Below the pieces are notes generated by a model. It worked only from the letters and a program-made list of their open reading frames with translations. It ran no database searches and was not told the origin of the DNA. The position numbers and the translations under genes were made by a program. Below are positions 8,194 to 62,482 of a stretch of DNA of 64,000 nt, piece by piece. This stretch comes from an uncultured Caldisericota bacterium (lineage in GTDB: Bacteria; Caldisericota; Caldisericia; Cryosericales; Cryosericaceae): positions 62,001 through 126,000 of the forward strand of contig CAIQIK010000042.1 in the NCBI GenBank assembly GCA_903871855.1, written 5' to 3'. Each line of letters starts with the position of its first letter. The first letter of the stretch is position 1.

Positions 8194-8310
8194 CCCCCGA
8201 GCCCTTTTGTCCAAGGCGAGGGGTGCTTCCCACGAGCATGTTGGTCCAATGGGAGTGGCGCTCTGCCCCCCGAGCACTTTTTTCGCATGCGAGGGGTGCT
8301 TTCGGCGAAG
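8194..8310 (+). repeat. 36-bp palindromic unit cluster A (three units)
   Basis: Three units lie head to tail. Unit 1 (about 8195-8230) pairs CCCC with GGGG and GCC with GGC. Unit 2 (about 8230-8265) pairs CCAC with GTGG and CAT with ATG. Unit 3 (8268-8303) pairs CCCC with GGGG and GCA with TGC. In all three the two stem parts are separated by GA opposite GA. Each hairpin is followed by a 6-7-nt tail of the TGCTTC type. The block fills most of the gap between the bactofilin and ftsB-like genes; no gene is seen in it. Confidence 0.85.
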
Positions 8311-12786: not shown

Positions 12787-12917
12787 CCCCGAGCCCTTTT
12801 GTCCAAGGCCCCCGAGCACTTTCTTCCAATGCGAGGGGCGTTTCTGAGGGGTGCTTCCCACGAGCATGTTGGTGCAATGGGAGTGGCGCTCTGCCGCGTC
12901 TGCGGGAATCCAGTCCT
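12787..12917 (+). repeat. 36-bp unit cluster B1 with nested insertion
   Basis: A first unit of the GCC/GGC type begins at 12787 and breaks after GGC at 12809. A complete 36-bp unit (GCA/TGC type, 12810-12845) follows, and then the missing 3' part of the first unit (GAGGGGTGCTTC) resumes at 12846. A CCAC/GTGG unit (about 12858-12893) comes next, then the right half of an H1-like repeat ending GCGGGAATCCAG. No gene is seen between 12691 and 13099; the whole gap is promoter and repeats. Confidence 0.85.
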
Positions 12918-12935: not shown

Positions 12936-13010
12936 GAGAATGTTACAGTTTGGAACCCCCCGAGTATGTTAGTTCAATATGAGGGGTGCTTCCGTCCCGA
13001 GAATGTTACA
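12936..13010 (+). repeat. H2 repeat interrupted by one 36-bp unit
   Basis: GAGAATGTTACAGTTTGGAACC (in two pieces: 12936-12947 and its continuation to 12957), then a complete unit 12958-12993 with GTAT/ATAT inner stem, then GTCCCGAGAATGTTACA (12994-13010). Removing exactly 36 bp restores the H2 sequence found at 25129-25167, with no duplicated target bases. Confidence 0.85.
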
Positions 13011-25182: not shown

Positions 25183-25293
25183 GTCATTCCCCCCGAGCAC
25201 TTTTTTCCCATGCCCCCGAGTGTGTTAGTCCAATACGAGGGGTGCTCTTGAGGGGCGCTTCTGAGGGGTGCTTCTCCGCGAGTGCGGGAATCC
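25183..25293 (+). repeat. 36-bp unit cluster C inside a split H1 repeat
   Basis: GTCATTC (25183-25189) and CCGCGAGTGCGGGAATCCA (25276-25294) are the halves of an H1 repeat. Between them lie the 5' part of a GCA/TGC unit, a complete inserted unit (GTGT/ATAC stem, tail TGCTCTT), the 3' part of the first unit (GAGGGGCGCTTCT), and one orphan 3' part (GAGGGGTGCTTCT) whose left half is missing. The 24999-25378 gap otherwise holds an H2 repeat and promoters; no gene is seen. Confidence 0.82.
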
Positions 25294-26514: not shown

Positions 26515-29500
26515 CTAGCTGAAGGAAACGAGGTCGTTCCCGGATTCGGCCGATATCTCTGGAGTCTTGAGGCTTGCTGTCTCGACGATACTGACGTCCT
26601 TGTAATTCTTCGAGATGTTCTTGTACGTCGTGAGATAGTTCTCATACCCCATCTTCTTGGCTACCAGCAGGGCTTCGCCGACAAATCCCGGCGCCTCGAG
26701 GCGCATCGCCAGGTCTCGGGCAATTGACAGCTCGATAGGAGACAGAGCAACGACAGTGAGCTTGATCACATGCCGTATCTCCTCTGGCACATTCTGCAGG
26801 TCCTTGGCCGAGACAGCCAGTTTGGAGATACGGTTGCGGTACCCGCCGCGGAAGAGCTGCGCCAGAGCGCCGGCATCGGTGACGACGCCGTCACGCAGCA
26901 GCGTGTCAAGTTCGATAGCGCCCGAGAAGATAGAGGGCTGTAGAGCCGGTCTGCTTGCTGGAACCGGTACGACTGGTGGTACAGAGGCAGTGACGCCTGC
27001 TGGTGCGCTGGCTGCAGCAACTGTTTGCTGGAACGACTCCTCATCGGCCAACAGTCGCGACAGAAGGTCCGCGCTGGGTGCTGCCCCCGGATTGCTTTCT
27101 GGTGGTTTCGCCGCTGGGCGTTCGCGGTCTGATGTGAGAGGTTCGACTTCGACAGGGACCACCTCGGGTGTTGTTACGAGTTCTGAGGTTTCCTGAGTAG
27201 CCGGCGCCATCTCTTTGGCAAGTGAAACTTCCTCATGCGTTGGAGCACCCGTCTCCTGAGTCGAAACCGGTTCTTCCATGGAAGCTGCCTGTGGTGCAAC
27301 AGGTGCCTCTGGAACAGAGATTTTTTCGGCCTGAAGTGCCTCCTGGGTTCCCAGGAATTCCTCGGTAGGCATGGGGCGCTCGAGAGGCAAGGCAGTTTCA
27401 GCACCGCTGCTTTCTAGTTCAATGGGCTGGGCTGGAGCCTCCTGCCCGATAGGTCTCAGTTCCGGTTCGGGGAAAGGTTTGAGGAGCATTTCCGAGGGAA
27501 GTTCCTGGGCAGGAGGGCCTTCCTGTGGAGGCATGAGGAGAGCTTCCGAAGGAACCTCAGCCGGCACGGCCGGCGCAATCATAGCGGCAGCGTCCGCAGC
27601 TCCATGAGGCACTGCAGCGGGCGCCGTCTCTGTGCCGGCGAAGAAGCCAAGTGGCTCCAGGGAAATCTCCGAGACCTGCGGTGACTCGAGCCGGGCATGA
27701 GATGATTCCTCGGCGATCGCTGGTTGAGCAGCGGGTTCCTGCACACGCTGTGCTTCCTGCTTCTCATGGGTTCGTGTCAGTCGATCCAGTGTCATTGTGG
27801 GCGATGGTATTGGGCCTTGTTCCACAAGACCGAACTCTATGGTGTTCTCTTTCTGTCCTGCCGTCCTGGGTGTCACCTTAGGCAGGCGCTTGCCTACGTT
27901 GCGGCGGGGACGCAGAGCGAGTAGGAGGATGATGAGGGCAAGAACGACAACAACCCAAAACATCCATACAGCTACCAGCTCGGGCGTCACCGAGAGGCCG
28001 GACACCATGCGTCCCAGAACTGGTACGACCAACGCAGCCAGGGGCAAAAACAACCGGACGGCGAGATCATTGATCGCCTGTGTCGCGGTCTGGAGCACCT
28101 TCAATGCCTTACCCGAGACGAAGAAATCACGGATGCCCACAGTGAGAGAAGCGACAAACGCCCCCGTCGCGCGAGTTGTCTTCTGAATCCATACCCATGC
28201 CGTCTGCCACCGAGCAGCAATGAAAGTGCCCGTCGCGTGAGTTGCCTTCTGAATCCATACCCATGCTGTCTGCCACCGGGAAGCAATGAAGGCACCCGTC
28301 GCGCGAGTTGCCTTCTGAATCCATGCCGACACTGCCTGCCAGGGTCCCGACGACGGTGACTCCACAGGAGTGGATGTTTGCGTCGTTTCGTCTGTATTGG
28401 TCGAGGCTACGGGACTGGAAGACGAGACCTCTGCGACACTTGCGTTGACCGAGGAGTCGGCCAGCGGTAGCGCTACAGCCAATCCCTCGCGAGCCTCTTC
28501 TCCGAGATCGAAGAGCTGAACCGGTTTTGTCGAGGTGAGCCGAATGGGAACCCCGCTGGCGTCGATACGTAGAATCTTCGCTTGAGCTGTATTCAGGGTG
28601 AAGCGCTGAGATGAAGCTCCTGTGGATAGCGTGACATCCGCTCCGTCCTGAACGCCAACAACAGCAAGGCGGCGAAAGTGACCCTGGGAGAAACCGCTGA
28701 AGAGCTTGCCACTGGTGACGACGAAGTTTAACCCAGAGCCGGTGAGGGCTGTCGATGGATATTGTTCAAGGCCGAAGTTGCCCGAGTTTCCGTCGGTGGT
28801 CAGCGTGTACGGTCCATTACTCTCGACCACGATCGGCTTCCACTCGGTCTTGCCCGCAACATACGCGTTTTGTGCAATCGTGGTTCTTGTCGTTGAAGAA
28901 CCGAGCTCTGGAAGCAAAGACGTCTGTGTGGTTCCTGCGAACGATGTTGTGACCGTGGTGGCAGGACGCCAGGACGTTATGGTCGTCTGTCCGAACGACG
29001 GACCCGCAAACCATGTCCCGACAGGATACTGTACACATGATATGTTGTCTTCCTCGACGCCCGAGGTGACACAAACGGGAGACGAGCTCCTGAGGCGATA
29101 TATTCCGGGTTCCAGCCCGTCAACGAACCTGACAGATGCAGGAGAAAGCGCGATGGTCCGCGTGCTTCCCTTGCTTGTGAGCGAAACCGAGGTAGACGAA
29201 GGCGCCGCAAGCCAGAGCTCGCCAAAGGTCCGCACCAGTAGGTCGGTACCCACTGTGCCGTAAACGTCATCGTTGGACTGCCTGAGGGCTTGCTGTTCCG
29301 AATCGGGAGCCATTGTGACAAGCCAGACACTGACGGGCTTTGCTGCATCGATGCGCACGACCTGCGGGGACTTGGCGGTGTAGGACATCGATTCATCGGG
29401 GCCGAGTGTGCGCGACAGAAGCAGTGTCCCATCGGCCTGCACGAGTCTGACCAAATTGCCGGCCTCGAATGAAGCCACCTCGAGCACCTTCTCTACGTAG

Positions 29501-40930: not shown

Positions 40931-40970
40931 TTGAACTGAGGCTCTTCGGCCCCGTGTCATCTGTCATTCC

Positions 40971-41076
40971 CGCCTTCCCCTCTGTCATTCCCGCCCACAC
41001 GGTTGTCCTATTCTGTCATTCCCCCGAGCACTTTTTTCCCATGCGAGGGGCGCTTCTCCGCGCAGGCGGGAATCCA
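40971..41076 (+). repeat. H1 repeat copies, one interrupted by a 36-bp unit
   Basis: Two partial H1 left halves (GTCATTCCCGCC at about 40971 and 40984) precede a full H1 repeat split by a unit: GTCATTC (41015-41021), a complete 36-bp unit (41022-41057, GCA/TGC inner stem, tail CGCTTCT), then CCGCGCAGGCGGGAATCCA (41058-41076). Removing the 36 bp gives the sequence type seen intact at 8093-8118. Confidence 0.88.
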
Positions 41077-41103
41077 TGTGTTTTGTCGAGTGGTACAGCG
41101 AAG

Positions 41104-41246
41104 GTGTAACAGAATTGGAACCCCCCGAGTATGTTAGTTCAATACCCCCGAACATATTTTCTCAATGCCCCCGAGTATGTTAGTCCAATACGAGGGGTGC
41201 TTCTGAGGGGCGTACTGAGGGGTGCTTCTGTCCCGAGAGCGTTACG
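41104..41246 (+). repeat. H2 repeat interrupted by three nested 36-bp units
   Basis: H2 left half ends GGAACC at 41122; H2 right half GTCCCGAGAGCGTTACG begins at 41230. Between them are three left halves in a row (starting 41123, 41146 and 41169) and then three right halves (GAGGGG plus tails TGCTTCT, CGTACT, TGCTTCT). The total is 107 bp, that is 3 x 36 minus one base in the middle unit. The gap 40874-41376 holds only promoters and these repeats. Confidence 0.88.
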
Positions 41247-41275
41247 TTTCTCCGCGCTTGTACCACCCTGTGCAC

Positions 41276-41298
41276 AATTACCAGCTGACCCCATAGCA
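41276..41298 (+). repeat. Shared upstream motif, copy 2
   Basis: AATTACCAGCTGACCCCAT-AGC, matching 25316-25338. It lies directly after the repeat cluster and upstream of the smc promoter. Confidence 0.5.
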
Positions 41299-58951: not shown

Positions 58952-59179
58952 TCATTTCCCCGAGCCCTTTTGTCCCTCGCATCCTTTTGTCCAAGATGCG
59001 AGGTGTTCTTCAAGGCCCCCCGAGTATGTTAGTCCAATACGAGGGGTGCTCTTGAGGGGCGTTTCTGAGGGGTGCTTCCCACGAGCCCAAAGATGTTTTT
59101 GTATCCGAGGGTGTTCTGCATGTTGGTGCAATGGGAGTGGCGCTCTGCCGCGCAGGCGGGAATCCACTTCTTGTGTCCA
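58952..59179 (+). repeat. 36-bp unit cluster E, multiply nested
   Basis: A GCC/GGC unit starts about 58958. At its loop (after GTC, 58974) a different 36-bp unit is inserted whose 9-bp stem CCTCGCATC/GATGCGAGG is fully paired. The host unit resumes with CAAGGC, then takes a second insertion (GTAT/ATAC type, from about 59018). Two right halves follow, then a CCAC/GTGG unit itself interrupted by a shortened unit (about 59087-59118), then CCGCGCAGGCGGGAATCCA of an H1 repeat. The 58850-59324 gap contains no gene. Confidence 0.85.
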
Positions 59180-60356: not shown

Positions 60357-61082
60357 ATGCCGGCGTTCGAAGCGGGTCGGTCGCTCAGGCTGGGCGAACA
60401 TGTCATGCTTGGCGGCACGCCTGCCGCACACCACATCGCAGATGTCCTCCGCGTTCGTCACGGCGAACAGATTATCCTGTTTCATGCAGGAATATTGTAT
60501 AACGCGGTTGTTGAAAACGCTTCCAGGTCCGGCCTTGCCGTCTCGGTGGAGAGCATCCGTCAGTTGCCCTTTTCCGCGCGCCCGGTCACCCTTCTGCAGG
60601 CAATCATTCGACCCGCACTGCTGGGCGACGTTGTCCACGTCTGTACTCCGCTGGGAGTGCATCGGTTCGTCCTGTATGCCGCCGAGCGCAGCCAACCATG
60701 GAATGTCGCCGGGCGGCTCGAGCGCCTGAGTCAGGTGGCCCTGTCCGCGGCCGAGCAGGCCGAAACGGGTGACGTCCCAATGATCGAGCTGGCACCAGGG
60801 CTTCAGAGTGCATTGTCATGCGTGGGCCCCGTGGGCAGCCTGATTATGATGTCTCCTCGCGCGCCCTCGACCATGATGGGACTTGCGCGCGACGGGGCAC
60901 TCGCTCTGGATGATTCCGTCGCGGTCGCAGTAGGCCCTGAGGGTGGGTTCTCGGGGCCAGAGGAAGCGCTGCTCATCGAACGAGGCGCCTTGCCCGTTCG
61001 CCTCAGCACGGGCATCCTCAGGAGCGAACTGGCCGGGTTCGCCGCCATATTGATGGTGCGGGAATTGCAGGCGAAACCATGA
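60357..61082 (+). CDS. rsmE: 16S rRNA m3U1498 methyltransferase
   Basis: The 241-residue SPOUT methyltransferase has a PUA-like N-terminus (HHIADVLRVRHGEQIILF) and the knot motifs VAVGPEGGFSGPEEALL and LSTGILRSELAGFAAI (usually LRTETA). It methylates U1498 of 16S rRNA with SAM. It starts 3 nt after hrcA and overlaps mtaB by 4 nt. Confidence 0.95.
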   Translation: MPAFEAGRSLRLGEHVMLGGTPAAHHIADVLRVRHGEQIILFHAGILYNAVVENASRSGLAVSVESIRQLPFSARPVTLLQAIIRPALLGDVVHVCTPLGVHRFVLYAAERSQPWNVAGRLERLSQVALSAAEQAETGDVPMIELAPGLQSALSCVGPVGSLIMMSPRAPSTMMGLARDGALALDDSVAVAVGPEGGFSGPEEALLIERGALPVRLSTGILRSELAGFAAILMVRELQAKP

Positions 61083-62482
61083 AGGTGTTCATCTACACAC
61101 TTGGCTGCAAGGTCAACGAGGTCGACTCCGAGCTGTATGCACAGGAAATGCGTTTGCTGGGTGCCGAAACGACCACAGCGCTGACTGAAGCCGACGCCGT
61201 CATCGTGAACTCGTGCAGTGTCACGAACCGGGCCCAGGCTCAGAGCCTGCAGTTTGCGCGTCGTGCCCTGCGCGAACGGCCAGGGGCGCCCGTGTATCTC
61301 ACCGGATGCGGAGCAACACTGCTGAACCTGACGCGTACGGAAGCTCCTGCCGGTGTCGCCGTCGTTGCCATGCGTGATCGAGTGGAAGTGGCGAGGCTTG
61401 TCGTCCACTCAGGTGATGCAGCACAGGTCACAGCGCGATGGGTCGATGGGCGCATCCAGAGAGCGGGGCCCCGCAACCGTGTGGACGTGCGCGTGCAGGA
61501 GGGGTGCGATAACATGTGCACCTATTGCGTCGTGCCGTTTGTGCGTGGCTCGCGCCTTGAATCCAAGCCCGCCCTTGTGGCGGTGGACGAAGTCATGGGG
61601 CTTGCGGCGGCAGGTGTCAAGGAAGTCGTGCTGACTGGGACAGAGATAGGCAAGTACGGAGAGGCACCACTCAGAAGCACCCCTCGTATTCGAAGAATAT
61701 ACTCGGGAAGTACGCCCTTCGTATTGGACCAACATGCTCAGGGGGCATTGGAGGAACATGCTCGTGAGGAAGCGCCGAACAGACTACCTGCCCTGCTGGA
61801 CAGCATGCTGGGGGCGCTTGAGTCTGCAGGACTTCCGACGCGTGTTCGCATCAGCTCGCTCAATCCGGACGCGATCACCGAAGCGCTGGTCGGTCAGTTT
61901 GCAAACCATGTCGCGCTGTGCCCGCAGCTACATCTTCCCCTGCAGAGCGGGAGTGACGCAGTCCTGAGGCGTATGCGTCGGCCATATACATCGAAGGACC
62001 TACTCGACAGTGTGCAACGCCTGCGGGTCGTCGACCCGGCGTTCACCCTGACGACGGACGTCATCGTCGGGTACCCCGGTGAGACCGAGGAGGACCTGCA
62101 GGCTACCTTGGACGTAGTCCGGCTTGCGGCGTTCGCCAAGGTCCACGCATTCCCCTATTCAGCCCGTCCGTTCACCCCTGCGACACGTGAAGAGAACCAG
62201 GTCCCGCCGGGAGTCGCAAAGGAACGACTCCACCGCGTGCTCGAGCTCGCGGAGCAAACGGGTGTGGCATTTGCTCGCCGGTTTATCGGTCGGGACGTAA
62301 CGATCGTATCCGAGAAGTCCTTTCCCGGAGAGGTTGAAGGGTACTCAGAGTACTATCTCTGGACAGAGGGACGGATGCGTGGAAACAAAGTGCTCGAACG
62401 TGACAGCTTTGTCGTCGTTCACGTTGAGGGTTGTCACTGGGATGGTGACCGGGTCGTCCTTTCCGGGGGCGTAGCTACATGA
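61079..62482 (+). CDS. mtaB: tRNA t6A37 methylthiotransferase with in-frame repeat insertion
   Basis: The radical SAM methylthiotransferase of the MiaB/MtaB family has an N-terminal 4Fe-4S domain (TLGCKVNEVDSE, NSCSVTNRAQ, TGCGA), the radical SAM motif CDNMCTYC (C143, C147, C150) with VVPFVRG, and a C-terminal TRAM domain. MtaB makes ms2t6A at A37 of ANN-decoding tRNAs. It is 467 residues; residues 195-230 are encoded by 108 bp of nested palindromic repeat (61660-61767). Removing them joins TGTEIGKYG to EAPNRLPALLDSM and leaves 431 residues, the usual length. The site is a surface-like loop before the second half of the barrel. Confidence 0.93.
   Translation: MKVFIYTLGCKVNEVDSELYAQEMRLLGAETTTALTEADAVIVNSCSVTNRAQAQSLQFARRALRERPGAPVYLTGCGATLLNLTRTEAPAGVAVVAMRDRVEVARLVVHSGDAAQVTARWVDGRIQRAGPRNRVDVRVQEGCDNMCTYCVVPFVRGSRLESKPALVAVDEVMGLAAAGVKEVVLTGTEIGKYGEAPLRSTPRIRRIYSGSTPFVLDQHAQGALEEHAREEAPNRLPALLDSMLGALESAGLPTRVRISSLNPDAITEALVGQFANHVALCPQLHLPLQSGSDAVLRRMRRPYTSKDLLDSVQRLRVVDPAFTLTTDVIVGYPGETEEDLQATLDVVRLAAFAKVHAFPYSARPFTPATREENQVPPGVAKERLHRVLELAEQTGVAFARRFIGRDVTIVSEKSFPGEVEGYSEYYLWTEGRMRGNKVLERDSFVVVHVEGCHWDGDRVVLSGGVAT
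61660..61767 (-). repeat. Three nested 36-bp units inside mtaB
   Basis: In minus orientation. The outer unit is split: 61660-61672 (tail plus GTGG and GA) and 61744-61767 (TCAC, GA, GCAT, loop, ATGC). Inside are a GTAT/ATAC unit of 35 bp (61673-61707) and a CCCT/AGGG unit of 36 bp (61708-61743). Total length is exactly 108 bp, keeping the mtaB frame; a one-base gain (61744) balances a one-base loss in the inner unit. Confidence 0.88.

Follow-up and report, generated by a model that had tools for sequence, protein, structure and literature searches.

A 36-bp hairpin unit nested within copies of itself: a probable non-autonomous mobile element of the genus Candidatus Cryosericum

Between the ValRS and SMC genes of a genome of Candidatus Cryosericum, a permafrost bacterium, three left halves of a short palindrome (starting at 41123, 41146, and 41169) are followed by three right halves (GAGGGG at 41192, 41205, and 41217), exactly as an earlier note on this DNA had claimed. 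How could units come to lie inside one another in this way? The note proposed that a very small non-autonomous element had been inserted precisely, one copy after another. We followed this proposal in the window, that is, the whole stretch of 64,000 nucleotides analyzed (bases 62001 to 126000 of contig 42, in a genome of 1.84 Mb), in the rest of the same genome, read as stretches around matches, and in related genomes.

The unit is a 29-nt hairpin followed by a pyrimidine-rich tail of 7 or 6 nt, and the 15 units of the window, once deconvoluted, can be aligned across 36 columns. The hairpin begins with a CCCC stem, continues through a tandem G.A/A.G step and 3 to 4 more base pairs, and closes with a loop of 9 to 11 nt. 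Among the 109 distinct copies used for the consensus and structure counts, the outer stem is of 4 bp, CCCC/GGGG, with the compensatory versions CCAC/GTGG, CCGC/GCGG, and CCCT/AGGG; the internal loop keeps G.A in 106 copies and A.G in 99, the terminal loop is approximately KTTNKTYCA, and the tail reads YGCTTCT. For the unit stem we counted 41 compensatory cells, versus a shuffle mean of 9.2, and 93% of cells were paired, compared with 80% in shuffles and no more than 61% after the partner had been slid. The G.T wobbles favor folding of the given strand by 32 to 10 cells, a result that is reversed once the variable pair 10-20 (41 C.A cells) is counted. Among the units with a recognizable right neighbor, 62 have a tail of 7 nt and 34 a tail of 6 nt; the earlier description of the unit as 29 plus 7 nt holds for the 36-nt units, but there are 35-nt units too, including the middle one of the triple nest. 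Two rarer subtypes were also found, one (CCTCGCATC..GATGCGAGG) with a fully paired stem and 36 nt and the other a 33-nt form. The whole triple nest was also considered as a conserved structure, but its thermodynamic fold is no better than that of shuffles, so the nest itself is not a conserved structure.

A degenerate pattern for the unit found 66 intact copies in its own genome and none for the reversed control, while the window gave 5 matches and 100 shuffles of it gave none; the unit is therefore not a product of chance. With a covariance model, the means of counting that the note had suggested, about 80 copies were found in the window's genome and 1 to 76 in each of 13 other genomes of the genus, so that 14 of the 15 genus genomes and none of 46 others carry it; the one genus genome in which the model found no unit is incomplete. 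Across 84,980 species, a strict pattern, which would miss divergent relatives outside the genus, matched only Cryosericum/Caldiserica records, namely Candidatus Cryosericum species and Caldiserica MAGs. The unit pattern had no match in the viral contigs searched, Rfam had none across the cluster, and a literature search found no publication on repeats of Candidatus Cryosericum.

The features of the window are collected in the table. The single nesting at 12810-12845 was found exactly where the earlier note had placed it, and that in cluster C is real, although it lies one base away from the position given there. Both unusual insertions claimed for cluster E exist as well, in the loop (58975-59010) and in the 5' arm, but the insert in the arm is 33 nt long, not 36. 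The note's list of clusters was incomplete, since it missed the minus-strand cluster inside a gene. Right halves without a left half (GAGGGG plus tail) stand at 25263-25275 in cluster C and at 59054-59066 in cluster E; they are probably deletions between repeated left halves, which suggests that some decay by deletion also takes place.

Table. Repeat units and their hosts in the window (positions count from the first base of the window; a slash in a sequence stands at the junction)
Feature	Position	Strand	Remark
Three tandem units in one CGTC-type REP (8195-8229, 8230-8265, 8268-8302)	8195-8302	+	
Nested pair, intact unit 12810-12845 splitting an outer unit	12787-12857	+	
CCAC/GTGG-subtype unit (compensatory stem change)	12858-12893	+	
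Unit in P2 palindrome, cluster B	12958-12993	+	Orthologous site empty in G002 and G013
Cluster C: intact unit 25214-25249 between the left and right halves of an outer unit, then an orphan right half 25263-25275	25191-25275	+	
Entire repeat block between ValRS and SMC genes	40953-41298	+	Related species have 0-1 bp there
Intact unit within CGTC-type REP (GTCATTC/CCGCG...GCGGGAATCC)	41022-41057	+	CGTC REP definition, PMC3733652
P2 palindrome hosting the triple nest, GGAACC/GTCCCGAG..GTTAC	41107-41247, limits approximate	+	P2 flanks a RAYT gene elsewhere in the genome
Outermost unit (level 1), left half	41123-41145	+	Read from sequence
Middle unit (level 2, 35 nt in total), left half	41146-41168	+	Restored outer unit CCCCGAACATATTTTCTCAATGC/GAGGGG
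Innermost unit (level 3), intact, 36 nt	41169-41204	+	
Middle unit, right half (GAGGGG and 6-nt tail CGTACT)	41205-41216	+	
Outermost unit, right half (GAGGGG and TGCTTCT)	41217-41229	+	
Cluster E, outer unit whose loop holds a CCTCGC-type unit (58975-59010)	58958-59147	+	
Cluster E, further parts: intact unit 59018-59053, then two right halves	within 58958-59147	+	
Cluster E, 33-nt unit in 5' arm of a CCAC/GTGG unit	59086-59118	+	
Three units in mtaB-like gene (ORF 61079-62482, +)	61673-61767	-	72 bp (61673-61744) splits the outer unit

The proposal of sequential precise insertion stood up to both comparisons that the note had named against it, for empty alleles and for 36-bp quantization. 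Clusters C, D, and E have empty orthologous sites, as does one unit of cluster B. The ValRS-SMC block (about 347 bp, with the triple nest) is missing in eight related species, which have 0 to 1 bp between flanks that are 79 to 90% identical; the block of cluster C is missing in three species and that of cluster E in G013 and G002. At the P2 site of cluster B (TTTGGAAC/CGTCCC), empty in both G002 and G013, the difference between G002 and the window is exactly 36 bp. As for quantization, an mtaB-like gene and a family of histidine-kinase genes step by exactly 36 bp, and excision of 35 to 36 bp restored 42 outer units. In this excision test, n = 24 to 49 bases were removed from 193 distinct intact units at loci of the genus; the outer unit was restored 29 times at n = 36 and 13 times at n = 35, never at 24 to 34, and the offset 23 was dominant. 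Smaller counts at 38 to 42 are mostly tandem neighbors matched near their ends, and those at 47 to 49 are double nests. The 47 nested cases represent 47 different combinations of outer and inner sequence; 42 of them lie at offset 22 to 24, between the inner stem and GAGGGG, and the other 5 lie in the loop at offset 17, where 4 are of the CCTCGC subtype. Several nests are three deep. Some composite blocks were found again at several loci, suggesting that nests spread as blocks as well.

Units that stand alone lie mostly within other palindromes, either a CGTC-type REP (P1, GTCATTC/CCGCG..GCGGGAATCC) or P2 (GGAACC/GTCCCGAG..GTTACA), by which a RAYT gene is flanked at two loci. The CGTC REPs, described together with the GTAG superfamily, are defined by a CGTC tag, a stem of 8 to 9 bp beginning with AT, and a CCA tail (PMC3733652), and P1 agrees in tag, stem, and tail. 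The orientation of the unit in the CGTC REP is forward by 57:2 when judged by the left flank and by 67:0 by the right, and the base at -1 is C in 182 of 193 units. No consistent target duplication was seen at the junctions of nested, P1, and P2 sites. Its target specificity is unusual: the unit enters copies of itself, CGTC-type REPs, and a palindrome that flanks a RAYT gene, with C almost always before it and with a single orientation. Together with the restriction to the genus and the lack of a flanking cognate transposase, these palindromic landing sites go beyond what the earlier note could see.

Insertions are also found within genes. ORF 61079-62482 is a tRNA methylthiotransferase gene of the MtaB/MiaB family (NCBIfam), in which the hairpin strand of the unit is antisense to the gene and the outer unit has its right end just below 61673. 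Relative to the empty form (+0) seen in six aligned relatives, three have +36 bp, and the window's genome and G002 have +108 bp, where the additional 72 bp lie at the point of the first unit that nested copies usually occupy. These states are at odds with the poorly resolved and weakly supported gene tree, which suggests that exchange (recombination) between species or precise loss also plays a part. At one site in the ATPase domain of the histidine-kinase family, 11, 23, 35, and 47 residues were found in five, four, two, and two sequences, respectively, corresponding to +0, +36, +72, and +108 bp, with units both tandem and nested; one further sequence (G011) has 15 residues. This multi-copy family (L261-L275, L044, L099, L116, L218) gains 12 residues per step in the ATP-binding domain. 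In-frame insertion into unrelated genes is thus seen in the mtaB-like gene and the histidine kinases, and the unit is an example of a mobile element that gives proteins 12 amino acids at a time.

Comparison of these sites shows that the unit goes in as a piece of exactly 36 or 35 bp with no consistent duplication, nearly always 3' of C and in a fixed orientation to its target; that its targets are mainly other palindromes, including the unit itself, and sometimes genes, which it enters in frame; and that the nests are built by successive insertions at one internal point. That the unit is mobile and is inserted precisely is, on this comparative reading, almost certain. As a whole explanation, we think it rather likely that the unit is a mobile hairpin, specific to the genus and not autonomous, which folds as a single strand and is moved in trans with no duplication of its target. 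The exact length, the lack of duplication, the C at the left junction, the fixed orientation, and the hairpin form together resemble single-strand transposition of the IS200/IS605 and REP types, and a single-stranded hairpin intermediate seems reasonably probable. The unit would move folded as a single strand, be cut at the foot of the hairpin and after the tail, and then be joined into a nicked or looped-out target, while the enzyme would be supplied in trans. The best candidate would be a Y1/HUH protein of the RAYT kind, such as the RAYT beside uvrB. We hold the assignment to a Y1/RAYT enzyme only tentatively, and the RAYT as mover is the weakest step of the explanation. The absence of an orientation bias relative to GC skew (80:96), a bias that a lagging-strand mechanism might predict, counts against this explanation.

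Also against it, none of 27 Y1-transposase loci from the genus is flanked by a pair of units, as RAYT genes usually are by their repeats, and only one has a unit nearby, at most about 300 bp from the Y1 domain. RAYT-A, which matches the REP-associated tyrosine transposase family with a score below the family cut-off, adjoins uvrB in each of the seven genomes in which that gene was located (L072, L074, L078, L081, L086, L088, L092), and no 36-bp unit lies near these seven loci. The uvrB-side RAYT is apparently conserved genus-wide, which makes RAYT-A a genus-wide candidate enzyme, although nothing ties it to the unit. P2 (TGTAACATTCTCGGGACGGTTCCA) stands on both sides of a RAYT gene in two species (L071 2500-3900, L087 2900-4000) and for that reason looks like the cognate REP of the RAYT group that it flanks. 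A third RAYT group (L073) lies between inverted GGGTCAAGCGTTACC sequences.

Other explanations must be weighed against a hairpin moved in trans. Ordinary repeat decay or replication slippage would account for the orphaned halves, but inner and outer copies of different subtypes, the quantized lengths, and the empty orthologous sites refute it as a general explanation, and we give it practically no credence. It is more conceivable, yet still unlikely, that ectopic recombination or gene conversion spread a few ancient nests, with the fixed insertion point reflecting common descent instead of repeated insertion. Composite blocks at several loci, the orphan right halves of clusters C and E, and the scatter of mtaB-like insertion states on the gene tree speak for such exchange; the 47 different outer/inner combinations and the shortness of the arms (about 23 and 13 nt) speak against it, and recombination among repeats cannot start the first exact 36-bp insertions in unique coding sequence, as in the mtaB-like and histidine-kinase genes.

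An RNA route is less probable still. A reverse transcriptase would copy the unit from an RNA hairpin, as suggested for yeast mitochondrial GC clusters, whose authors favored RNA-mediated ligation and retrotransposition (PMC4478555), and a strand-asymmetric hairpin with a tail would suit it. However, a reverse transcriptase domain occurs in only 1 of the 15 genus genomes, that of the window (G000; L253, G000:C40:3933-4487, in an 866-aa frame), while 14 have units, and the hairpin strand of the units in the mtaB-like gene runs antisense to it. The enzyme could also be neither a Y1 transposase nor a reverse transcriptase, such as a recombinase of the serine or DEDD type or a protein specific to Cryosericum. 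The confinement of the family to one genus and the lack of a cognate Y1 gene flanked by the unit agree with this, whereas a search, which was not systematic, turned up no such enzyme; we regard it as possible but doubtful. About equally doubtful is the idea that a separate class of minimal mobile DNA is involved, in which a single 36-nt hairpin uses hairpins as landing sites at subtype-specific points, makes no target duplication, and depends on an as yet unknown enzyme; on this reading, the conserved G.A/A.G tandem might serve as the mark that is recognized.

Whichever enzyme moves it, the unit belongs with the very small palindromic mobile repeats, as a new variant. The analogies drawn in the earlier note (REP, RPE, and yeast GC clusters) proved to be likenesses in kind, and the full defining set of none of them is found in the unit. 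REPs, with their RAYT transposases and 5' guide sequences (PMC6006769), are likewise palindromes of 20 to 40 bp in many copies, mostly intergenic and at times in genes, and are thought to move as folded single strands. In contrast to them, the unit has neither a GTAG/GT[AG]G nor a CGTC tag, ends in TGCTTCT instead of CCA, does not flank RAYT genes, and inserts into other REPs and into itself at a fixed point. The GTAG guide is absent 5' to the hairpin foot, where the flank is variable target with only the C at -1 constant, and the other strand of the unit carries AGAAGCR, not GTAG; the tag, stem, and CCA tail of CGTC REPs are absent from the unit and present in the P1 palindromes that it enters. 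RPEs, described as about 150 bp and including the CGTC REPs RPE-4 and RPE-6 (PMC3733652, PMC10969869), are likewise palindromes that enter unrelated protein genes in frame (PMC10969869), but the unit is 36 bp long, has another tag and tail and no CGTC tag, and nests; no description of nested RPEs was found in the literature searched. The yeast GC42 clusters are also short GC-rich palindromes with presence/absence polymorphism, units merging into one another, and an unknown enzyme, but they have AG or ACT direct repeats at their ends (PMC4478555), whereas the unit has no such repeats and no consistent duplication and resides in a bacterial chromosome.

MITEs and IS200/IS605-derived elements are similarly non-autonomous. 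Unlike MITEs, the unit lacks terminal inverted repeats with a target-site duplication. The IS200/IS605 type uses hairpins and makes no target duplication, and in both respects the unit agrees with it, but the unit is a single hairpin without the 5' tetranucleotide guide of REPs and of IS200/IS605 ends, and no autonomous partner was found. Cyanobacterial small dispersed repeats, about 20 bp long, were reportedly described with evidence of mobility by Elhai et al. in 2008; going by descriptions in citing papers, they too are very short elements with evidence of mobility.

Insertions of REP-like palindromes are rarely caught in the act, and how such palindromes spread is therefore an open question. 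In the present case, sites that hold 0, 1, 2, or 3 units in orthologous or paralogous genes show directly in what order, at what exact length, in which orientation, and into which target the insertions took place, and the unit is among the smallest mobile elements with so clean a record of stepwise insertion. It also offers a defined substrate for testing candidate enzymes, with a 29-nt hairpin, a 7-nt tail, and a target junction after C. Elsewhere in the window, three direct 66-bp repeats (77 to 85% identical to the first) lie at 28146-28343 inside a 1127-aa open reading frame.
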